Source: Blastocatellia bacterium
GTDB lineage: Bacteria > Acidobacteriota > Blastocatellia > Pyrinomonadales > Pyrinomonadaceae
Length of the DNA stretch: 59,408 bases
Reading direction: 5' to 3'
Assembly (NCBI GenBank): GCA_003168335.1
Contig: PMSM01000004.1
Span: forward strand, 1-59,408
This document shows, one piece after another, positions 49,893 through 59,408 of this stretch. The notes below the pieces were generated by a model. That model was not told the DNA's origin, did no database searches, and saw only the letters and a program-made list of their open reading frames with translations. The translations under genes and the position numbers were made by a program. Within the stretch, counting starts at the first letter, position 1, and each line of letters starts with the position of its first letter.

Positions 49893-49907
49893 GCAATCTA
49901 TCTGCCA
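49893..49907 (-). promoter_or_regulatory. Candidate sigma-54 promoter of the polysaccharide locus
   Basis: The minus strand reads TGGCAGATAGATTGC, giving GG and GC separated by exactly ten bases, against the sigma-54 consensus TGGCAC-N5-TTGC. It lies about 170 bases upstream of the wza-like start, pointing towards it. One mismatch (G for C at the last conserved -24 base) weakens it. The polysaccharide loci of related bacteria are often driven by sigma-54, which is context and not proof. Confidence 0.45.
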
Positions 49908-50143
49908 TTCTTTGCCAGGCCGGTCCGCCGTCGTTTGGCCGTAATGCCGAGCCAACCGGCTACGGTTGCGCCCCAGTGTGTGCTCCACCAGCGAAGAGGA
50001 AAATCAATAATATGCCGCTGATCATATTCGCGAATGAACTTGCGCTGGTGATTTCATATCAATTTCGCCTGTGCTTTTCTCTTGCCGACTTGTCAATCAC
50101 TGCATTCACTTATCTGGCGTCCGACGGCGATTTGAGAGGACCC

Positions 50144-50593
50144 TCATTTGTCTCTCATGGCCGTAACGCGAAAGTGGGCGCTGCGATGCGCCACCGGTGA
50201 TGATCCATAGGCAGCCTTGAAGCTTCTGGTAAAGTGACTCGCGTTGGGAATACCTACTGAGGCTGCGATGTCTCTCACGGTGAGGAAGCCTGTTTCTAAG
50301 TACTGTCGCGCTTTCTGCAGCCGTACCAAAGTCAGGTAACGCAGCGGTGAAATTCCCACCTCAGCTTTGAATAAATGTGCCAGCCGCCAGGAGGAAAGAT
50401 TCACGGCCTTCGCCATTTCCGACAGATCCAAATGGCGGTGAAAGTTGTCCTCGATCAGAATCTTAACAACTTGCACCCTCCGGTCGCGATTCGGATGATC
50501 TGTCCGGCTACCAGAACCATCCGAAGACCGCCTTATTGATTGCTTATTCACTTGTTGGTTGAAGGGCATCAACCCTTCGGTGCGAAGGATCAT
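50144..50593 (-). CDS. AraC-type DNA-binding protein without sensor domain, copy 1
   Basis: The 149-residue protein carries only the AraC/XylS DNA-binding part. The first helix-turn-helix is DLSEMAKAVNLSSWRLAHLF with KAEVGISPLRYL. The second is TVRDIAASVGIPNASHFTRS with FKAAYGSSPVAHR. The N-terminal 40 residues (Gln/Ser/Arg-rich) form no recognisable ligand-binding domain. It is related to the copy at 51198-51659 and to the broken copy at 56397-57636. Targets are unknown. It lies upstream of the polysaccharide locus in the same direction, so it may act on the region between, but this is an inference. Confidence 0.85.
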   Translation of the reverse strand: MILRTEGLMPFNQQVNKQSIRRSSDGSGSRTDHPNRDRRVQVVKILIEDNFHRHLDLSEMAKAVNLSSWRLAHLFKAEVGISPLRYLTLVRLQKARQYLETGFLTVRDIAASVGIPNASHFTRSFKAAYGSSPVAHRSAHFRVTAMRDK

Positions 50594-51197
50594 GCCTTGG
50601 TATTTTCCGCAACCAGAGTCTTAGGTAGAGTTATTGCCGCTGAGAATTGTTAACCCGAACTTTTGCGGAAGCTGACCAAACCTGTCGTTCTCATTTGGAT
50701 TTCCAAGTCAATGCATAAGTCTGCGCTCGCCTGAAATAAGGATCGTCGGACGATTCTCAATTCACGCATTACCCCGAAGGGAAGCCTATCTCGCCAGGCA
50801 GCATTCAATTGAAGTAACGTGCGTCTCCCTCACGTTCCGCAGACACACTCGTATCCAACCACGCCGCTATTGGACAGAGCGCGGGGAGGAAAGGCCTTCA
50901 CCTTTTCCCGAGAGTCCCTTTCCCGTGTCAGAAGGATGAGAATTCGTGAGTGTGGGCGAACGAAAGTTCAGGAGCTCACAAACAGGAAATCGCCTACTGC
51001 TGAGTCGAAAGGATCATAATGAGTCAACGGTCTACGTTAGTTCTGGGAACCGCGAGGTGACCTTATATGGTAGTTTGCCAGACTGAGCAAGGTCTATCTA
51101 TTGACGCATTACGCTATTTACAACTTGTTACTGCTAATCATGTACTGATCTTGCTACGGCGTGGTTCTAGCTGTCATCAGATGACTGAAATTGCCGC
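50594..51197. other. Intergenic region, no gene supported
   Basis: About 600 bases separate the two AraC-type genes. Short plus-strand ORFs at 50819-51019 and 51067-51288 have no recognisable features, and the latter overlaps the AraC gene antisense. No repeats or RNA genes were found. Confidence 0.5.
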
Positions 51198-51659
51198 TCA
51201 CTTCACCCAGATTCGTAGCACCGGAGCCACGCTGGTCAGATCCAGTCGCAGGTGGGTCTTACGATATTCCTTTGGGGTGGTGCCATAGCGAGCTTTAAAG
51301 CTGCGGCAGAAACCGCTGACGTTGGGAATGCCAACTTCAGCTGCGATCTCCTTCACACTCAGCACCCCGTTTTCTAAACATTCCTTTGCCTTGTCCAGCC
51401 GAATGTTATTGAGGTAGCGTTGCGGAGACACTCCGATCTCGTTCTTGAACAAATGAGCCAATCGCCCTGGCGAGAGATTAACGGCTCGGGCAATATCTCC
51501 TATCAACAGCCGGCGCCTCGCACTGTCGTTGACCAGCATCAACACCAGTAGCATTCGCCGATCATGCGTCCTCGAGCAGGGCTGGCCGCACGGCATCAGG
51601 GCCGCCGTCGACTCTTTGATGTTGCAGCCAGTCGCAAAGTGATTCGCCGGGTCGTGCAT
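51198..51659 (-). CDS. AraC-type DNA-binding protein without sensor domain, copy 2
   Basis: The 153-residue protein has a Cys-containing N-terminus (TGCNIKESTAALMPCGQPCS) and the AraC DNA-binding domain. The first HTH is LIGDIARAVNLSPGRLAHLF with KNEIGVSPQRYL. The second is SVKEIAAEVGIPNVSGFCRS with FKARYGTTPKEYR. It lacks a sensor domain. The Lys-rich gene immediately upstream (24-base gap, same strand) suggests one transcript. The broken AraC copy at 56397-57636 matches this copy closely at both its ends, including the ending TEYRKTHLR, so they are recent relatives. Confidence 0.85.
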   Translation of the reverse strand: MHDPANHFATGCNIKESTAALMPCGQPCSRTHDRRMLLVLMLVNDSARRRLLIGDIARAVNLSPGRLAHLFKNEIGVSPQRYLNNIRLDKAKECLENGVLSVKEIAAEVGIPNVSGFCRSFKARYGTTPKEYRKTHLRLDLTSVAPVLRIWVK

Positions 51660-51683
51660 GTGAGCATCCTCCTGGCACTTTCT

Positions 51684-51986
51684 TCAGCGCCCCAGGCCTA
51701 CCCGACGGGACATCAGCGCCTCGCGCAGGTGATTGGGGTGAGCTAGATTCAATACGGTATTACTAAATACCACCATCAATTCCTCATGCTCGCGGGCGAA
51801 CCTGCCGGTAAGCGGAAGGTCTCCAGTCTTGGCCACCACGCCTTCTCTGACCCACTGCCAGAATTGAGTCTGCGTGGTCCAGAACTCCTTGCGATCGACG
51901 CAGACCACCAGAGCAGTTTTCTTCTTTTTCTTCTTCTTGAGTTTGTTCTGTTTCTTCGTAGTCAACTTTTCGCGCTCCCCGGTCAC
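51684..51986 (-). CDS. Lys-rich small protein of unknown function
   Basis: This 100-residue frame starts with GTG and has a basic N-terminus (TTKKQNKLKKKKKKKTA), then VCVDRKEFWTTQTQFWQWVR, GDLPLTGRFAREHEELMVVF, and NTVLNLAHPNHLREAL. The regular, Trp-rich core is gene-like. I recall similar acidobacterial hypothetical proteins but have no name for them. The poly-Lys tract suggests nucleic-acid or membrane contact. It precedes the AraC-type gene (24-base gap), so they may form a small operon. The start is uncertain; a TTG near 51966 would also retain the core. Confidence 0.55.
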   Translation of the reverse strand: MTGEREKLTTKKQNKLKKKKKKKTALVVCVDRKEFWTTQTQFWQWVREGVVAKTGDLPLTGRFAREHEELMVVFSNTVLNLAHPNHLREALMSRRVGLGR

Positions 51987-52139
51987 CCGTCACACCTCTG
52001 CGCCCTATCAGCATGTCGTGCGGCGCTTCGCGGCCGGAATCCGTGATCAGCTACTATTCCGGTCGTTGGCGAACGGGCAATCATCGTGTTCTCCTATTGA
52101 CTGACAGCGTAAGACCACAATCTCCTGACGAGGCATCTC

Positions 52140-52544
52140 CATCAGAACCGCTTCGCGTCCCGAAACGCCGAGTAGTGTTAGTGAAGCGCCTGGAAGTTTG
52201 TCTTTGACCATCCCTGGCATGTTTCAGCAACTACTGAACATTGCGATACCGCGTCGAGCCAGACCGTAATCACCATGCCAGCTTCCCCCTTCGCGATAAA
52301 ACTTCGCTAACCAAGCACCCCTCTCTGAAATGAAATCACTGTTCTCATCGCTGATCTCATGGCGATGCTGCCAGCGATGCCCATATTCTCAGGAGAGGGG
52401 TCGGGATTCTCATACAGGCATTAGCTCAAATGTGTGCGACAACAAGCACACTGTTGTGGATTCTTGCTGATAGGCTTAAGAGGTTCTTGTAGACTTGACA
52501 GAATCGAGCCGCCCGCAAACACCTAGGCTCAACCGAAAGCCTCA
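52140..52544 (+). repeat. Upstream repeat U1 of the HTH paralogue 1
   Basis: This region is similar to 54050-54449: both contain CGTCCCGAAACGCCGAGTAG (or CGTCCGGCGATGCCGGAGTG), TGTTAGT, AAGTTTGTC, TTTCAGCAA (CTTCAGCAA), CGAGCCAG.CCGTAAT and GCTGATA followed by AGAATCGAGCC. Each copy runs up to the start codon of an HTH paralogue. The copies share no reading frame, so this is regulatory or untranslated DNA duplicated with the gene. Confidence 0.6.
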
Positions 52545-53651
52545 ATGTACGTTACTCACGGTCTCCCTCTGATGATCTACACCGTGCTGGCCCACAGCGC
52601 TGTGCCCGGCGTCCTGAAGTCGCCGACCGGCTTGGTTCGTCTAATTGGCCCTGTGGCAGCAAGCTTTGTCAGCTCCCAACCGATCGCCGCCAGTTTCTCT
52701 CGACTGCAACAAACGGCCAACACGATCTACAGCCGTATGCGATTCCTCGGACTTAATGAGACGCAGTTGTCCGAGCGATGCAGTCTTACGGCCATCCATT
52801 TATTCGAGGATGCTGAGGTGCCTAGTTTGACGCGGGACCGCGTTTCCAAAATCCTGATGAACCGGCAGGATGTACCGGCAAAATCTGCGGCTCGGATCAT
52901 CACCCAGGCGGAATTGACCGTGCTGGCCAATGTGCTCGGGGTCTCTGTCGAATGGTTAATCGGGCAAGAAGAAAGTCGGGATCCGGTGGTTTGGAACGTA
53001 TTGGCTAATCCGGACCGCGTGGTTGAATTCGCGCACGTGCTGCAAGCGTACGAGGAGGTGGGTAAGGAAAACAAGGTTTGGAGCCAATATCTGATGCACT
53101 CCTATACCAGCGAAGCCTTTGCTCGCGCCTTCAACCAGGTGCATTACGAAGGGAAACCCAACCCCGCGAAGGCGAGATCACTAATCGAGTTCTACAATCG
53201 GATAGCCCGAATCAGGCGGAAGCGGATCTTGCGAACCGGTCGCTCATTTGACTACACGAGCCTTCTTTATCAGTCACATTTCGAGGAGGTTAGCTGTGGC
53301 CAAGGTGTTTTTTCGGCCATCTCCAAAACGATCCTGCGAAGAAATCTGGAGGTGATGATCGACACAATCACTAGCCCCTCGTTAAGAATCAAACTGGTTA
53401 TCATTAAGGACGACTATGTCGCAGGTTTGCAGGCTGTCCGTGACTACGAGATCCTGTCAACCGTGGATAACCTGTTTTCAAGCTGGAATTATCATGGAGG
53501 CGACGTTGGCTGGTCTGAGCACCCCAGCTACGTCCAACCCCATCGCCAACTGCTGGACCGTATGTCGGCGCATTCTCTTTGCCGCGACGTTAACGAAACA
53601 GTCGAGTACCTTAAGTCTTTGCAGAGCCGCCTTCGTAGCCGTCCAAAGTAG
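52545..53651 (+). CDS. HTH regulator with unrecognised C-terminal domain, paralogue 1
   Basis: The 368-residue protein begins with about 55 residues that vary between paralogues. An XRE-like helix-turn-helix follows at about 65-145 (GLNETQLSERCSL, RDRVSKILMNRQDVPAKSAA, ELTVLANVLGVSVEWLIGQE), with an insert (HLFEDAEVPSLT) between the second and third helices. The C-terminal domain, about 150-368, is not one I recognise. Its landmarks are RDPVVWNVLANPDRVVEF, FNQVHYEG, GQGVFSAISKTILRRNLEVM, IKLVIIKDD, DVGWSEHPSYVQPHRQLLDR and VEYLKSLQSRL. It is probably a cytoplasmic transcription regulator with a sensor half. Two paralogues lie next to it (54450 and 56450). Its ATG follows upstream repeat U1, with no strong ribosome site. 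Confidence 0.8.
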   Translation: MYVTHGLPLMIYTVLAHSAVPGVLKSPTGLVRLIGPVAASFVSSQPIAASFSRLQQTANTIYSRMRFLGLNETQLSERCSLTAIHLFEDAEVPSLTRDRVSKILMNRQDVPAKSAARIITQAELTVLANVLGVSVEWLIGQEESRDPVVWNVLANPDRVVEFAHVLQAYEEVGKENKVWSQYLMHSYTSEAFARAFNQVHYEGKPNPAKARSLIEFYNRIARIRRKRILRTGRSFDYTSLLYQSHFEEVSCGQGVFSAISKTILRRNLEVMIDTITSPSLRIKLVIIKDDYVAGLQAVRDYEILSTVDNLFSSWNYHGGDVGWSEHPSYVQPHRQLLDRMSAHSLCRDVNETVEYLKSLQSRLRSRPK

Positions 53652-54049
53652 ACCTTAAGTCGATCTGCTCAGCCGTAATACCATCAGGACTCTGCTGCCA
53701 ACATTGCCAAGATTTCGGGACCAGGAAGTAGAGCCACCCCTCCGCAATAGATCTCGGCTTGGCGCCGCTCGACTTCGGCAGCCCAAACTCTCTCGATCAG
53801 GATCAGTTTGAGGCTGGCGATCAGCCTCGCAGGTTTTGGTTTTGCGCGCCGAGTGGTAAATGCCTGGCCGCGGCTGGCAGCGTTTCCGGCAGTTCTGTCT
53901 TACGTCTTTGCTTCAACGCTTCCTCGTAGCGAGCCGAAACGAGACGCAAGCCAAGGGCATTCGCGCTTTTCTCCGGCGCAGTCCGACCATCGACCGATCG
54001 TTGTCAGTGTTTTTGGCAATAGCAACTGGGAGTGACCTGTGGCCGCAAC
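53652..54049. other. Intergenic region, no gene supported
   Basis: About 400 bases follow the first HTH paralogue before upstream repeat U2. Both paralogues 1 and 2 are followed by the shared downstream words TAGACCTTAAGTCGATC. Short plus-strand ORFs at 53808-54180 have no recognisable features. No RNA gene or repeat beyond this tail was found. Confidence 0.5.
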
Positions 54050-54449
54050 CCAGAACAACTGCGTCGCGTCCGGCGATGCCGGAGTGTGTTAGTAAGGCGA
54101 TTTTAGAAGTTTGTCATCGACCCTCCTGGGCATGCTTCAGCAATTTTGGGCGTTGCGACCCGCAGCGAGCCAGGCCGTAATCCCCATGCCGGGTTATTGC
54201 TTCCCGATAAGATTTCGCTATTCCCCTGAAATAGAATCACTGTTCCAGCAATTGATCTTAGAGCGACGCCGAGAACTCCAGCTATTTCCAGAGACAAACG
54301 AGGCGCGGGATGCTCTGGTAGGCAGTAGCTCCGATCTGTGCGACACCAAGCACACTATGCGAATTTATTGCTGATAACCTTAACAGGTCATCGTATGATC
54401 GCTTTGACGTAGAATCGAGCCTCTTGCCCGGGATCGGTGCACGCCCTCA
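54050..54449 (+). repeat. Upstream repeat U2 of the HTH paralogue 2
   Basis: This is the second copy of the upstream region at 52140-52544, diverged by substitutions and small indels. The frame of an 87-residue ORF here (54111-54374) is broken in U1, which argues against a coding role. The tandem U1-gene and U2-gene arrangement shows that promoter and gene were copied as one unit of about 1.9 kb. Confidence 0.6.
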
Positions 54450-55556
54450 ATGTCCGTTAGCCACGTTCTCGCTCCGCTGATCGACACCGTGCTCGTCCGC
54501 AGCGCCGTGCTTGGCGTATTGAAGTCAGCGATTGGCTTGGCAGGCGTAATTTACCCTGTGGTAGCAAGTCTGTTTGGCTCGGAAGCGATTGCTCACAGTT
54601 TCCCTCGTCTACGACAGACGGCCAACAACATACACAGCCGCATGCAATCCCTGGGACTGAACGAGACCCAGCTGGCCGAGCGCTGCAGTCTCGCTTCGAT
54701 TCATTTATTTGAGGATGGTGAGGTGCCTCGTTTGACCCGGGACCGCCTTTCCAAAATCTTGATGAACCGGCAGGATTTACCCGCAAAGTCCGCGGCTCGG
54801 GTAGTTACCCATGCCGAATTGACCATTCTTGCCAATGTGCTCAAAGTCTCAGTTGAGTGGTTAATCGGGCAAGAAGAAAATCGAGATCCGGTGGTTTGGA
54901 ACGTATTGGCTAACCCGGACCGCGTGGTTGAATTCGCGAATTTGTTTCAAACGCACGAGCAGATAGCTAAGGAAAACCGGATTTGGAGCCAATCTCCGAT
55001 GTATTCGTTTCTTAGTGAGCCTTTTGTCCATGCTTTTAACCAGGCGCACTACGGAAGGCAACCTGGCCTGCCAAATACCAGACCGCTGGTTGAGTTCAAC
55101 AATCGAGTGGCCCGGGTAAGGCGCAAGTGGATATTGCGTCCGGATCGCTCCTTTAAGTATACAAACCTGATCAATCAGTCACATTTCGAGGGCGTTACCT
55201 GTGGTAAAGGCGTTTTTTCGGCTATCTCCAAAACCATCCTAACCAGGAATTTAGACGTAATCATAGATGTGGTAACGAATCCCTCGCTCAGAATGGAACT
55301 CGTTATTCTGAATGACGCAAACCCCGCTGCCCCGGAGGCCTTACGCAACCATGAATTCGTCGCAGTCGTGGATAACTTGTTTTCAGTTTGGGGTTATCAC
55401 AGCGCTGACATTGGCTGGTCTGAACATCCAAGCTACGTTAATCCCCATCACCAGCTGCTGGACCGCATGATGGAGCACCGCCTTTTCCGAGATGTTAGCG
55501 AGACAGTCGAGTACCTTAAGTCTTTGCAGAGCCGCCTTCGCGACGGTCGCAACTAG
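54450..55556 (+). CDS. HTH regulator with unrecognised C-terminal domain, paralogue 2
   Basis: This 368-residue protein is a close relative of paralogue 1, with identical length and order. The variable N-terminus (about 1-55) is followed by the HTH part at about 65-145 (GLNETQLAERCSL, RDRLSKILMNRQDLPAKSAA, ELTILANVLKVSVEWLIGQE), with the same insert between the HTH helices (HLFEDGEVPRLT). The C-terminal domain keeps RDPVVWNVLANPDRVVEF, FNQAHYG, GKGVFSAISKTILTRNLDVI, DIGWSEHPSYVNPHHQLLDR and VEYLKSLQSRL. Differences cluster in the C-terminal half outside these blocks, which could mean different ligands. No partner gene is visible; both paralogues 1 and 2 stand alone behind a duplicated promoter region. 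Confidence 0.8.
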   Translation: MSVSHVLAPLIDTVLVRSAVLGVLKSAIGLAGVIYPVVASLFGSEAIAHSFPRLRQTANNIHSRMQSLGLNETQLAERCSLASIHLFEDGEVPRLTRDRLSKILMNRQDLPAKSAARVVTHAELTILANVLKVSVEWLIGQEENRDPVVWNVLANPDRVVEFANLFQTHEQIAKENRIWSQSPMYSFLSEPFVHAFNQAHYGRQPGLPNTRPLVEFNNRVARVRRKWILRPDRSFKYTNLINQSHFEGVTCGKGVFSAISKTILTRNLDVIIDVVTNPSLRMELVILNDANPAAPEALRNHEFVAVVDNLFSVWGYHSADIGWSEHPSYVNPHHQLLDRMMEHRLFRDVSETVEYLKSLQSRLRDGRN

Positions 55557-55853
55557 ACCTTAAGTCGATCGACTACTCAGTAAATACTTCATTAGAATTC
55601 CCCTCGTCAAGATTGTCTCTGGCTGAAAGGACTCGGTCTCATCTTCGCCCTGACGCAACTCTTGTTTGGCACTTCTCAATCAATGAATGTCTCCTGACCT
55701 GACCTGAGGCTCTCCGCGATTGTTGGCGCAAGAAACGCGCTGCTACGGATCAGTTTTGGCATTACGCGAGGGTATGCCGCGTCCCCCGAGTCCCGAGTCA
55801 TCCGACCCTATCTGGAGTCGCTGGTATGACAAAGCTCTTGAAGACTCGATTCT

Positions 55854-56265
55854 TCAAGCAATCGCGAACAACCGAGCCAAATCGACTGGCCGCAGAATCT
55901 GAGTCGAGACCAAGGGTTGTTCGGCGAGTAAGTCTTTGTCGCCTGTGATTAGATAGTCCGCATCGCTGGCAAGACCTGCAGGAATGAAAATCTCGTCTCT
56001 TTCGGATCGCGGGGAAAAGTAGGATGAGTCGAGGGCTCAACGCGAATGGTGATTTCTTCAATGAACGCTCTCCAGCTCTGTTGGATCGCGTCTGGGACTT
56101 TGAACTTCGGACGTGCCAGAACTTCACGGTATTTCGGTTTCAATCTCTGCGGTGACGATCCCGAAACCAGTCGTCGCGCAATACGATCTCATCGATAGCG
56201 CGCTGCGGCAGTCGGTCCCGAATCACAGCCGAGATGAAGGCACTCGTATCCACGAGAACATTCAT
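55854..56265 (-). pseudogene. Frameshifted PIN-domain toxin (PIN_3 type)
   Basis: The ATG at 56265 gives MNVLVDTSAFISAVIRDRLP, QRAIDEIVLRDDW, the frame then breaks. A second frame carries KYREVLARPKFKVPDAIQQS and EITIRVEPSTHPTFPRDPKE. A third gives DEIFIPAGLASDADYLITGD, KDLLAEQPLVSTQILRPVD and a stop at 55854. Together these are the full PIN-domain ribonuclease with its conserved acidic residues (DTSAFIS, the second acidic helix, ASDADYLITGDKDLL). Two frameshifts make the present form inactive. It was the toxin of a small toxin-antitoxin pair; the antitoxin remnant overlaps its start. Confidence 0.75.
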
Positions 56266-56381
56266 CGCCCGGCCAGGTAATCATCAATTTACTTCTGGAT
56301 GTCCTCGTCGGTGATTTCTTTCGACCCAGACAGGTTCTCTCACAAACGCCGCCACGCAGCCACGCGTTCAGCGGCAGGCAT
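56262..56381 (-). pseudogene. Antitoxin remnant upstream of the PIN toxin
   Basis: The minus strand reads MPAAERVAAWRRL, a stop, ENLSGSKEITDEDIQK, a stop, then IDDYLAGR and TGA, which overlaps the toxin ATG by four bases (ATGA). The end of this reading is typical of the short antitoxins paired with PIN toxins. Two in-frame stops show it is dead. Only its C-terminal part is preserved; the DNA-binding part is missing upstream, where an AraC fragment begins. Confidence 0.55.
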
Positions 56382-56396
56382 CGATGCTTTTCAATT

Positions 56397-56462
56397 CTAT
56401 TCTCAGGTGGGTCTTACGATATTCCGTTGGAGTGCTGCCATAAAGAGCTTTAGAGCTGCGAA
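56397..56462 (-). pseudogene. 3' end of a broken AraC-type gene
   Basis: The minus strand reads SSKALYGSTPTEYRKTHLR, matching the end of the AraC-type protein at 51198-51659 (FKARYGTTPKEYRKTHLR). The rest of the AraC gene is found on the far side of HTH paralogue 3. The 3' end of that paralogue reads into this remnant (YALSSQL before its stop at 56450), so the two overlap by about 13 bases. Confidence 0.75.
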
Positions 56463-57457
56463 CTTAGAGCGTACTTTGGACCGCGACGAAGGCGGTTCTG
56501 CAAAGACCTAAGGTACTCGACTGTCTCGTTAACGTCTTGGAACAAAGACCCCAGCGCCAGGCGGTCCAGCAATTGGCGATGGGGTTTGGTGTAGCTGGGA
56601 TGCTCGGACCACCCAATGTCGCCGCTGTGATATCTCCAAACTGTAATCAAGTCATCCACCGCTCCGAGAAACTCATAGTTGCGCAGCGCCTTTAGAGATT
56701 CGGCGCATTCGTCCTTAACGATAACCAGCTTGAGTCTTAACGAAGGGTTAGTTATGACGTCTATCATCACGTCCAGATTGCTTTTGAGGATCGTTTTGGA
56801 GATCGCGGCAAAAGCACCCGTGCCACAGATAACCGCCTCGAAACGGGAACGAGAGATGAGTCCCGTGTAGCCAGATGAGCGATCTGGTCGCGTGAGTTCC
56901 TTCCGCCTGATGCGGGCCACTCTATTGTAGAACTCGACCATGGGTCTGGTGTCCCCAATGCCAGGTTTGCTTCCGTAATACACCCGGTTAAAGGCGTAGA
57001 CAAAGGCCTCGCTGGTATAAGAGTGGAGGGGGTATTGGCTCCAAACCCTGGTTTCTGTGCCGGGTTTCTCATACTCTTGGAGCAAATGTGTGAACGTCAG
57101 GGCGCGATCAGGTTCTGCCAATACATTCCAAACCACTGGGTCTTGATTGTCTGCTTGCCCATCCAACCATTCAGTAGAGACTTTGAGGACTTTGGCAAGT
57201 ACGGCCAGTTCCGCGTGGGTAATAACCCGAGCCGCTGCTTTTGCGGGGAAATCGTGCCGATTCATCAAGATTTTGGAAAGGCGATCTCGCATTAAGCCAG
57301 GCACATCCTGATCTTCACTCATATGGACCGCAGCCAGGCTGCATCGCTCGGACAACTGGGTCTCGTTCAGGCCCAGGAATTCCATCCGGGAATATATTTT
57401 GCTCGCCGTGGTTTTTAGGCGAGCGAAGGTCGAGGATAACGATTGCGAAGCTAGCAT
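56450..57457 (-). CDS. HTH regulator paralogue 3, embedded in a broken AraC gene
   Basis: This 335-residue protein is a third member of the family at 52545 and 54450, on the opposite strand and lacking their variable N-terminal 30-35 residues. The start at 57457 (MLASQSLSSTFARLKTTASK) shares a base pair of TAATG with the stop of the AraC 5' fragment. A TTG at 57475 adds six residues. The HTH part (GLNETQLSERCSL, RDRLSKILMNRHDFPAKAAA, ELAVLAKVLKVSTEWLDGQA) and the C-terminal blocks (GAFAAISKTILKSNLDVMID, DIGWSEHPSYTKPHRQLLDR) are present. The family ending (SLQNRLRRGPK) lost its stop, so translation runs on into the AraC remnant as YALSSQL. The frame is open, so it could be functional as a fusion-coupled unit. 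Confidence 0.75.
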   Translation of the reverse strand: MLASQSLSSTFARLKTTASKIYSRMEFLGLNETQLSERCSLAAVHMSEDQDVPGLMRDRLSKILMNRHDFPAKAAARVITHAELAVLAKVLKVSTEWLDGQADNQDPVVWNVLAEPDRALTFTHLLQEYEKPGTETRVWSQYPLHSYTSEAFVYAFNRVYYGSKPGIGDTRPMVEFYNRVARIRRKELTRPDRSSGYTGLISRSRFEAVICGTGAFAAISKTILKSNLDVMIDVITNPSLRLKLVIVKDECAESLKALRNYEFLGAVDDLITVWRYHSGDIGWSEHPSYTKPHRQLLDRLALGSLFQDVNETVEYLRSLQNRLRRGPKYALSSQL

Positions 57458-57636
57458 TAAAGCGCTCCCAGCCAAATGTTGTTCAGGTGGCGCGGCGGGG
57501 AGACCCCAACCTCGCTCTTGAACAGATGCGCCAATCGCCCCGAGGAGAGGTTTACCGCGGTGGCCAGATCTCGGATTACCAACTGGCGCCGCAGATTGTC
57601 CTCCACCGCATTACTAAACACAACCCAGTGACGCAT
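57457..57636 (-). pseudogene. 5' part of the broken AraC-type gene
   Basis: From the ATG at 57636 the frame reads MRHWVVFSNAVEDNLRRQLV, IRDLATAVNLSSGRLAHLFK, SEVGVSPPRHLNNIWLGAL and a stop at 57457. This is the first HTH and connecting helix of the AraC domain. Compared with the intact copy at 51198-51659, about 29 residues including the second HTH (KAKECLENG to VSGF) are missing, replaced by HTH paralogue 3. The stop and the paralogue ATG overlap (TAATG), so the 59-residue single-HTH product could still be translated and coupled. Confidence 0.75.
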
Positions 57637-57666
57637 CCAGGCGAGTGAGTCTAGCAGGTATCAGCG

Positions 57667-57710
57667 AACCACTTTCGGAACGCTGTCGGCTGTCGTGTCC
57701 GAAAGTGGTT
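57667..57710. repeat. Perfect 13-bp inverted repeat
   Basis: AACCACTTTCGGA and TCCGAAAGTGGTT enclose an 18-base loop. The element lies 50 bases before the truncated gene at 57760 and just upstream of the broken AraC gene. TTTGCTGTTTCG follows on the plus strand, which is a weak U-rich tail. It could be a terminator, an operator or the end of a mobile element. Confidence 0.6.
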
Positions 57711-57759
57711 TGCTGTTTCGTGCTAGGCTCTTAGGCTGGAAGGGAAAATTAATAGGCAT

Positions 57760-58035
57760 ATGTTGGATCGGACCGAAGACGTGACCGTGAAGGCTTTTGA
57801 GCTGGCTTACTTCGTACATCGCGATCGCGACTTGGCATTACAAATCGCCACAGAGGCCTGGGCGGCGCTTAACGCCCATTTCAGGCCGCAGCGGAAGAGA
57901 TCTTTTTATCGCTTGAGGGGACGAAGCATTGGCGGTGCCAAGGTAAGCGCTAGGACCAAGATCACTCTCGAAAGCGCTCAAAAGCTGCAGTTGCTTGTCT
58001 ATATCAGATCGGAGCAGTTCGAGAGAAAGAGACTC
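57760..58035 (+). pseudogene. N-terminal fragment of an acidobacterial protein, cut at a tRNA-like sequence
   Basis: The plus-strand frame reads MLDRTEDVTVKAFELAYFVH, RDRDLALQIATEAWAALN, RKRSFYRLRGRSI, then SARTKITLESAQKLQLLVYI and RSEQFERK. This looks like the start of a large protein type I recall from Blastocatellia (AFELAYF.H.D...A...A, ...RTK.S.S...LLQ.LVY.ESEP.ER), whose function I do not know. At about 58033 the sequence changes into antisense tRNA, and the remaining frame (GGRDRTADLGVMNP) is a classic false translation of a tRNA. So the gene is truncated at the tRNA end. Position and length of the preserved part fit a real gene start. Confidence 0.55.
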
Positions 58036-58079
58036 GGGGGGCGGGATCGAACCGCCGACCTTGGGGTTATGAATCCCAA
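58033..58079 (-). tRNA. tRNA-Met-like 3' half (CAT anticodon)
   Basis: The minus strand reads a TTCATAA anticodon loop flanked by GGG/CCC-type stem bases, AGGTC, a paired T-arm (GGCGG, TTCGATC, CCGCC) and the acceptor end CCCCGAG. The matching 5' acceptor strand CTCGGGG and a convincing D-arm are not found upstream. No CCA is encoded. It is probably a truncated tRNA-Met/Ile-type gene and not active. The plus-strand gene at 57760 is cut exactly at its 3' end. Confidence 0.6.
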
Positions 58080-58374
58080 AGAAACGCCTGCACCAAACTC
58101 ATACGGAGCATAAGGCCAATAAAACAATGGGTCGCGGTCGGAAAAGATGCGTTTATGCGGTATATGCGAAATAAGGTTCGATATGAATCTCGGCAAAATC
58201 TCGGCAAAATATTTCTCGGCGGTATGAAGAGAATCAAAGAGGTAAACTAGTAAGGCGGATTCGTCAGGTGCATTCCGATCTTCTCGCGTTACGTTTCAGC
58301 GATTTCCACGTATGCGGCGAACGTGCCCGGCCCGAAAGCCACCATCGAGCCTGGACGAGTAAGGTTTTGTTGCC

Positions 58375-58671
58375 TCACGCCGCTCGAAATACTTTAACCT
58401 CTTTACCTATTCTCCTCTCAAGTTCGTTCTGGGCCATCTCAAGCTCGTAGCGCGCTTGGATTCGTACCCACACTCCGGCGCTCGTCCCGAAGTACCTTGC
58501 AAGTCGGAGCGCGGTGTCCGCACTTATGCCGCGTTCGCCTTTGACGATCTGGTTGATGCGCAGTGCGGGGACCCCGATGTCCTTAGCCACTCGGTAAGCC
58601 GTAAGTCCGTTTGGCTTCATAAAATCTTCCAGTAAAACTTCGCCCGGATGAACGGGTGCCAATCTCTTCAT
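58375..58671 (-). CDS. higA: HigA-type antitoxin
   Basis: The 98-residue protein is an XRE-family antitoxin of the HigA type: MKRLAPVHPGEVLLEDFMKP, the HTH LTAYRVAKDIGVPALRINQI, KGERGISADTALRLARYFG and the C-terminal helix WVRIQARYELEMAQNELE. The start at 58671 has GAGGTG at ribosome-site distance; a GTG at 58680 would add three residues. It neutralises the HigB toxin encoded 14 bases upstream and probably represses the shared promoter at 58974-59002. Toxin-first gene order is the rule for HigBA. The protein looks complete. Confidence 0.93.
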   Translation of the reverse strand: MKRLAPVHPGEVLLEDFMKPNGLTAYRVAKDIGVPALRINQIVKGERGISADTALRLARYFGTSAGVWVRIQARYELEMAQNELERRIGKEVKVFRAA

Positions 58672-58685
58672 CGCCGTCACCTCTC

Positions 58686-58967
58686 TCAGTGATAATCATC
58701 TATCTCGACATTCTCTGCTCGATTATTCGTCCAATCGAAACAGATGCGCCATTGATCATTGATACGGATGCTGTACTGACCTTTTCGATCCCCTTTTAAC
58801 TTCTCAAGCTGATTGCCCGGCGGCACGAATAAATCCTGGAGATTCTCAGCATCGTCCAGATAGATCAGTTTGCGTCGAGCGACCCGTTGAATGTCACGCG
58901 GCAATTTCTTTGATGGAACGCCGCTGTGAATCTTCCGCGTCTCCTCATCAGCGAACGATCCAATCAT
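58686..58967 (-). CDS. higB: HigB-type toxin
   Basis: The 93-residue RelE/ParE-fold toxin cleaves mRNA on the ribosome. It starts MIGSFADEETRKIHSG, has the central DIQRVARRKLIYLDDAENLQ and ends with the family block GQYSIRINDQWRICFDWTNN, then AENVEIDDYH. The conserved Arg and aromatic residues of QWRICF are present. Length is typical. The HigA antitoxin follows on the same strand, and a promoter with an inverted repeat lies directly before the start. The pair is intact, in contrast to the decayed PIN pair 2.5 kb away. Confidence 0.93.
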   Translation of the reverse strand: MIGSFADEETRKIHSGVPSKKLPRDIQRVARRKLIYLDDAENLQDLFVPPGNQLEKLKGDRKGQYSIRINDQWRICFDWTNNRAENVEIDDYH

Positions 58968-58973
58968 CCGAAG

Positions 58974-59002
58974 ATAGTATCACTTAATGATAATATCGCC
59001 AA
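58974..59002 (-). promoter_or_regulatory. Promoter and operator of higBA
   Basis: The minus strand has TTGGCG and TACTAT separated by 17 bases, a plausible -35/-10 pair, just before the higB ATG (58967), so the mRNA would have almost no leader. The spacer holds the inverted repeat TATCATTAAGTGATA (58978-58992). That is a good binding site for a dimeric HigA, whose binding would block RNA polymerase. Confidence 0.6.
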
Positions 59003-59408
59003 GCGGTATTATCGGTTACATTTTCATTTGACGACCCAAGAGCTTCAGAAGATGACGGTTCTTTCCATTTCTCTGGTCGGAGCACCACTAGACGCCGAAC
59101 CGCCGCGAAATTGCCGGGTAGCCACAAACAAGTGGCGTTGATCCGGAATCGCTTTTGTGTCGGAACGGCAAAGGCATACGGCTGTCCGCCGGTAAATGCC
59201 GTGCGGCGATGAAAAGCTAAATCAAAACCACATCGCATGGGCACACAAAACGGTATTGTCAACTTAAGGTGAATATCGCAGATCTTACCACTTCAGGTTG
59301 GGGGTATTGTCAGGTTAAACGGCGGAGAATGTAATCAGACTGTTCCTGCGGCATACTTAACTGATAAACACCTCCGTCTGCTCATGTTTCTCCTGCTGGG
59401 AATGTCGG
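59003..59408. other. Window end, no gene supported
   Basis: A 92-residue minus-strand ORF (58984-59262) has no recognisable features and overlaps the higBA promoter. Two similar words, GGTATTGTCAACTTAAGG and GGTATTGTCAGGTTAAACGG (about 59252 and 59303), may be ends of an insertion element continuing beyond the window. I cannot confirm this. Confidence 0.4.

Follow-up and report, generated by a model that had tools for sequence, protein, structure and literature searches.

An XRE-type regulator gene between the remnants of an AraC-type gene, a probable recombination scar in a local regulator cluster

The contig analyzed here (G000:C5; 59,408 bases, all of which constitute the window) belongs to a 5.16-Mb genome assembled in 14 contigs and carries, between two colinear pieces of an AraC-type gene that has lost 89 bases, an open copy of a helix-turn-helix (HTH) regulator gene, HTH3. 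We consider, with a probability of about three in four, that this arrangement was made by a single illegitimate-recombination event within a local cluster of duplicated regulators. The features on which the argument depends are the following:

50144-50593, minus strand: second intact AraC-type gene, A0 (Pfam HTH_18, E 3.2e-21)
51198-51659, minus strand: intact AraC-type gene, A1 (Pfam HTH_18, E 9.3e-24), nearer to the remnants than A0
52545-53651, plus strand: paralogue P1, the first 36 codons of which are probably leader rather than coding
54450-55556, plus strand: paralogue P2, a member of the HTH family
56383-57636, minus strand: composite locus, HTH3 between AraC remnants
56383-56460, minus strand: 3' AraC remnant, F3, with the end of the second HTH and the C-terminus, in its own frame and not that of HTH3
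56450-57457, minus strand: HTH3, the third family copy, from the ATG at 57457 to a TAA in the AraC remnant
56461-56474, minus strand: 3' junction, with TAC in place of the native stop TAG (56473-56471), nine bases and one unassigned base before the AraC sequence
57449-57467, minus strand: 5' junction zone, clearly assignable to neither gene, with TAATG and most of a GGGAG stretch
57469-57606, minus strand: 5' AraC remnant, F5, with the first HTH of the AraC-type domain, inside the open frame 57457-57636 (59 aa)

A0, A1, P1, P2, and the composite locus lie upstream of a minus-strand polysaccharide cluster, recognized by eye from its translations, at 30-50 kb of the window. The two intact AraC-type genes share 54% amino acid identity, cover the HTH_18 profile almost end to end, and possess the two HTH motifs and linker helix of the AraC family. 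Several other sequences of the neighborhood were recorded. A 75% identical copy of the segment upstream of A1 (51691-51938) occurs at C1:127516-127763, and the open frame over this segment has no Pfam match. A short minus-strand frame at 56146-56265, also without a Pfam match, resembles by eye the beginning of a PIN-type protein and is then closed by a stop. The 40 bases at 58039-58078 correspond to the 3' part of a tRNA-Met gene and are identical to C2:330769-330808, with 93-95% identity to places on C13 and C14; among the five such loci checked, ARAGORN accepts a tRNA gene only at C14, and these parts look like attachment-site scars left by integrative elements at tRNA-Met. Close to the contig end, at 58375-58967, a gene for a HigB-like toxin (Pfam E 3.6e-20) adjoins an HTH_3 antitoxin-like gene.

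When the A1 protein (51201-51659) was searched against the window by tblastn, it matched on both sides of HTH3, at 57606-57469 (46 aa, 70% identity, E 5.8e-16) and at 56460-56383 (26 aa, 69% identity, E 1.0e-7), on one strand and in the order of A1. At the DNA level the identity to A1 is 74.8% over 123 nt of the 5' piece and 88.3% over 60 nt of the 3' piece; F5 has 72% identity to A1 vs. 63% to A0, and the first 60 nt of F3 have 88% vs. 53%. Since both pieces are colinear, on the same strand and closer to A1 than to A0, a single AraC gene was most likely interrupted. For the same reason we dropped the idea that the 3' piece came from a different gene than the 5' piece, though their synonymous divergence from A1 differs (dS 1.05 for F5 and 0.37 for F3, both short), and separate histories or gene conversion may account for this difference. 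Against Pfam HTH_AraC, F5 stays under the cut-off (E 3.1e-4), with 32 of the 80 profile positions matched. The sequence missing between the pieces corresponds to A1 51306-51394, i.e., 89 nt or A1 residues 89-118, which from the helix limits we take to comprise what is left of the linker and the greater part of the second HTH. In contrast to stand-alone AraC-type genes with two HTH motifs, the interrupted copy therefore retains only the first motif and the end of the second. A search of 119 genomes, with queries other than F5 and F3, found no uninterrupted counterpart in the relatives, the nearest AraC sequence outside this genome being 54% identical, so the ancestral state is reconstructed from A1 alone.

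The earlier note had proposed, from the letters of the sequence, that a third paralogue of the 52545/54450 family sits inside a broken AraC gene from which about 29 residues are missing, and each of these statements agrees with the alignments. Its limits for the AraC pieces had to be revised: there is AraC similarity on both sides, but the 5' piece, drawn at 57457-57636, is confined by BLAST to 57606-57469, and the 3' piece runs to about 56383, below the 56397 at which it had been ended.

Both junctions can be placed. In an in-register alignment, AraC similarity stops at 57468, 19 bases follow, and HTH similarity becomes clear at 57448; the ungapped similarity of HTH3 to the 52545 copy extends from 57448 to 56462, nine bases beyond the native stop position, AraC similarity being found again from 56460. 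The breakpoints are thus located within about 20 nt at the 5' side and within 1-2 nt at the 3' side, and the 3' junction shows 1-2 nt of microhomology at most, the 5' junction up to 19 unassigned nt. As the note had described, the stop of the AraC fragment and the start of HTH3 overlap as TAATG (57459-57455), and HTH3 has lost its own stop: the TAG of P1 and P2 is TAC, and the frame continues for seven codons to a TAA inside the AraC remnant, without a fusion to the AraC domain because the remnant is read in another frame. The nine bases past the native stop position partially match the conserved 3' flank of the paralogues, with TAAGT in common. The junction alignments and a repeat search revealed no target-site duplication and no terminal repeats at the ends of HTH3. 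A gene interrupted by illegitimate recombination has lost bases at the target and shows little or no microhomology and no terminal repeats. The present interruption resembles such cases in all of these features, yet differs from them in that the segment inserted amounts almost exactly to one coding sequence. Boundaries so near the ends of a coding sequence would rarely be expected from random breaks, unless selection kept such cases. One regulator does lie inside another with both junctions placeable, but the insertion is not clean in the manner of a transposon, since the target lost 89 nt. That the whole arrangement is an assembly error seems extremely improbable: although the contig stems from a 14-contig assembly, an error would need two independent wrong joins that happened to yield colinear AraC pieces around an intact gene, and the closest further copy of this gene in the genome has a protein identity of only 62-63%.

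The extent of the inserted piece depends on where the family's coding sequence begins. HTH3 has 62-63% amino acid identity to P1 and P2; in DNA it matches the 52545 copy at 73.3% over 956 nt and the 54450 copy at 71.9%. P1 and P2 have open frames that start 36 or more codons farther upstream, and HTH3 therefore looked truncated. Nevertheless, differences between P1 and P2 in codons 1-36 are spread over the codon positions as 8/10/9, against 84/54/136 for the entire gene, and on this small sample these first codons look non-coding. Moreover, in the distant homologues of the genomes G017, G251, and G282 a methionine is found one column off the ATG at 57457 in the alignment, preceded in G282 by an AGGAGG-like stretch, although in all three these methionines sit within longer open frames. 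Taken together, the comparison suggests that HTH3 carries a complete coding sequence starting at this ATG. The inserted piece would then amount to about one coding sequence, beginning within about 10 bases of a methionine codon that lies one residue off in the distant homologues, and without the leader of about 400 nt that P1 and P2 have in common (52146-52545 and 54057-54450; 69% over 365 nt); P1 and P2 are also similar over 14 nt downstream.

HTH3 has been under protein-level constraint since its divergence from the paralogues. By the NG86 method, dN and dS are 0.196 and 0.801 for P1-P2, 0.253 and 0.828 for P1-HTH3, and 0.255 and 1.005 for P2-HTH3, giving dN/dS of 0.25-0.31 between HTH3 and its paralogues. 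With G017 as outgroup, unique residues number 22 in HTH3 vs. 21 in P1, and 23 in HTH3 vs. 24 in P2, and these relative-rate counts give no sign that HTH3 has accelerated. A mild result in the opposite direction comes from the maximum-likelihood tree, built from six of the eight alignment rows (fragments L006 and L007 left out, the G251 row trimmed at its start), which did not resolve the three copies and gave HTH3 the longest branch (0.33 vs. 0.17 and 0.23). Under simulated random change, a 328-codon frame stayed open in 3.9% of runs at 0.1 changes per site and in 0.3% at 0.2, so selection must have maintained the HTH3 frame through the greater part of its history, a history that may in part predate the insertion. 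As its dN/dS and relative-rate counts resemble those of its paralogues, HTH3 is probably a working, expressed gene. It is about as far from P1 and P2 as these are from each other, so that neither stands out as its source copy.

The AraC remnants present a different picture, being probably relics without function. F3 differs from A1 by 4/5/6 changes at the three codon positions over 26 codons (dN 0.18) and thus lacks a third-position excess, as expected of a relic, whereas F5 differs by 13/6/19 over 46 codons (dN 0.19), a pattern that may be older than the insertion. Both relic frames remained open in 33%-12% of runs of simulated neutral decay at 0.2-0.5 changes per site; the open frames are not decisive, for dating the insertion either.

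The earlier note had spoken of a possible coupled pair. In its full form this reading would have the AraC fragment and HTH3 function together through translational coupling, with a short AraC peptide that is produced and has a role. The layout permits it: the fragment has an open frame, it differs from A1 mainly at first and third positions, TAATG joins it to HTH3, and the GGGAG stretch ahead of the HTH3 ATG could act as a ribosome-binding site. On the other hand, the 59-codon frame has one HTH left of two, its codon-position pattern can predate the insertion, and a strong hairpin ends about 10 nt before its ATG. This hairpin is formed by an inverted repeat at 57647-57730 with 33-nt arms (z -7.0), lies between the AraC relic and an open frame at 57760, and covers the interval from about 10 to 94 nt ahead of the relic's ATG. 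Such a structure would tend to impede a leader; a terminator or an operator is another possibility. As a candidate repeated element the hairpin was rejected, being single copy in the genome. No sigma-70-like promoter turned up in 56300-57900 by a simple consensus scan (0.6 expected by chance), a result that says little for this phylum and is only weak evidence that a promoter is absent. Rfam gave no match at E up to 1 on 49900-59408. What is observed of coupling is the TAATG layout itself, and a functional pair with an important AraC peptide appears unlikely to us.

The note had further suggested that the locus may reveal how this HTH family moves, and here the evidence points elsewhere. If the gene were mobile or cassette-like, inserting into genes with HTH3 as one such insertion, the presence of three copies in this genome and none in six genus mates would be readily understood, as would the closeness of the inserted piece to one coding sequence. 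However, besides the absence of terminal repeats and target-site duplication already described, a scan of 10 small frames between 51.8 and 59.3 kb matched no transposase or integrase, and there is no common unit: no repeated insertion with the same boundaries was seen, P1 and P2 having flanks, including the 400-nt upstream region, that are missing from HTH3. No second insertion of the family was found, and across eight loci with members or fragments no other member has a convincing AraC remnant beside it (best E 0.046, 29 residues at 34%). The family matched nothing in 72,556 plasmid records or 50,697 phage records, and none of 16 pattern matches in viral contigs is a member.

Its distribution is narrow as well. 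With the window's genome included in each count, matches with an E of 0.001 or less occur in four of 97 relatives (two of them partial), in 3/119 genomes of the taxonomic family (one weak and short), and in 5/396 genomes of a phylum sample (two partial). In the family to which G251 belongs, three of eight genomes have a match (one partial). A scan of 84,980 species genomes, using patterns that reach fairly close relatives only, returned one locus, that of G017, a relative belonging to the same taxonomic family as the window's genome. The weak match in G030 (55 residues inside a 1079-codon frame) was not accepted as a family member, and the partial copies in G066, G085, and G295 were excluded from the full-copy counts. 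In G066, two parts of a family gene (L007 and L035) are found at contig ends, on C18 and C29; they may be a single gene that the assembly divided, with loss of the middle part. Given that all three copies of this genome are on the one contig and that G017, G251, and G282 have a single full copy each, duplication in place is a better account of the copies than movement, and we regard a mobile gene as very unlikely.

The family itself is best named an XRE-type regulator, possibly with a DUF5753-like C-terminus, a name based on distant profile similarity. None of the three window proteins matches a Pfam family at E up to 1, nor P2 at E up to 10. An N-terminal Cro/C1-type HTH exceeds the curated cut-off in the G282 homologue (HTH_31, 36.6 bits against a cut-off of 27), in contrast to the window proteins, and stays under it in G251 (23.9 bits). 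DUF5753 was not assigned at its curated cut-off (23.4 bits), the fragment L006 reaching 20.0 and G282 13.0 bits, and was seen neither on the window proteins nor in the whole genome, where the search had no positive control, 14 control genomes likewise having none over the cut-off. NCBIfam, PHROGs, and PADLOC offered no convincing family for the window proteins; the best PHROGs match was PHROG 8 "transcriptional regulator" (E 0.0027 on P2 and 0.017 on P1, over short stretches) and the best PADLOC match was capH (E 0.0074 on a short stretch of P2). A profile search of solved structures gave nothing significant (best E 0.39 and 0.48), and the AlphaFold2 model of HTH3 from a four-row alignment, with a mean pLDDT of 39.7, was too poor for use. 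According to one Streptomyces study, DUF5753 is the C-terminal region of XRE regulators that affect antibiotic production, these regulators are often paired with DUF397 genes, and some authors propose that XRE-DUF397 pairs are toxin-antitoxin systems (PMC10364602). Judged from its distant members, our family may share an N-terminal HTH with the XRE-DUF5753 regulators; it differs in length, its conserved part having about 330 aa against 258-295 in rows of a table of that study (PMC10364602).

In the recombination reading that we prefer, a copy of the XRE-type gene, reaching roughly from the start codon through the nine bases after the stop, would have been placed into a third AraC-type paralogue, the same event deleting 89 bases of the target. 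The AraC gene would have been destroyed, leaving two relics, and its upstream region would now precede HTH3, which may be transcribed from whichever promoter precedes the AraC relic, with translation starting at the ATG at 57457, perhaps aided by ribosomes finishing the 59-codon frame at the TAA of TAATG. The product would probably still be a DNA-binding regulator. A more ambitious possibility, which we hold only tentatively and think rather improbable, is a near-codon-exact capture of a whole regulator coding sequence in another regulator gene, in which the promoter and the first-HTH frame were taken over as a coupled leader and HTH3 answers the former signal of the AraC gene. Among the titles listed in literature searches, none dealt with a gene inserted into an AraC gene.

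On the best reading, then, the locus is an ordinary, one-off recombination scar, neither a mobile gene nor a novel type of gene pair, and its modest interest lies in the near-exact capture of one coding sequence, and it carries little weight as evidence on gene mobility. The XRE-type family escapes the models tried from Pfam and NCBIfam, to which it would be a possible addition. Were the capture reading true, the locus would be a case of regulator rewiring by gene-into-gene capture, and if HTH3 is expressed from the AraC upstream region, a duplicated regulator would have gained new control in one neat step.
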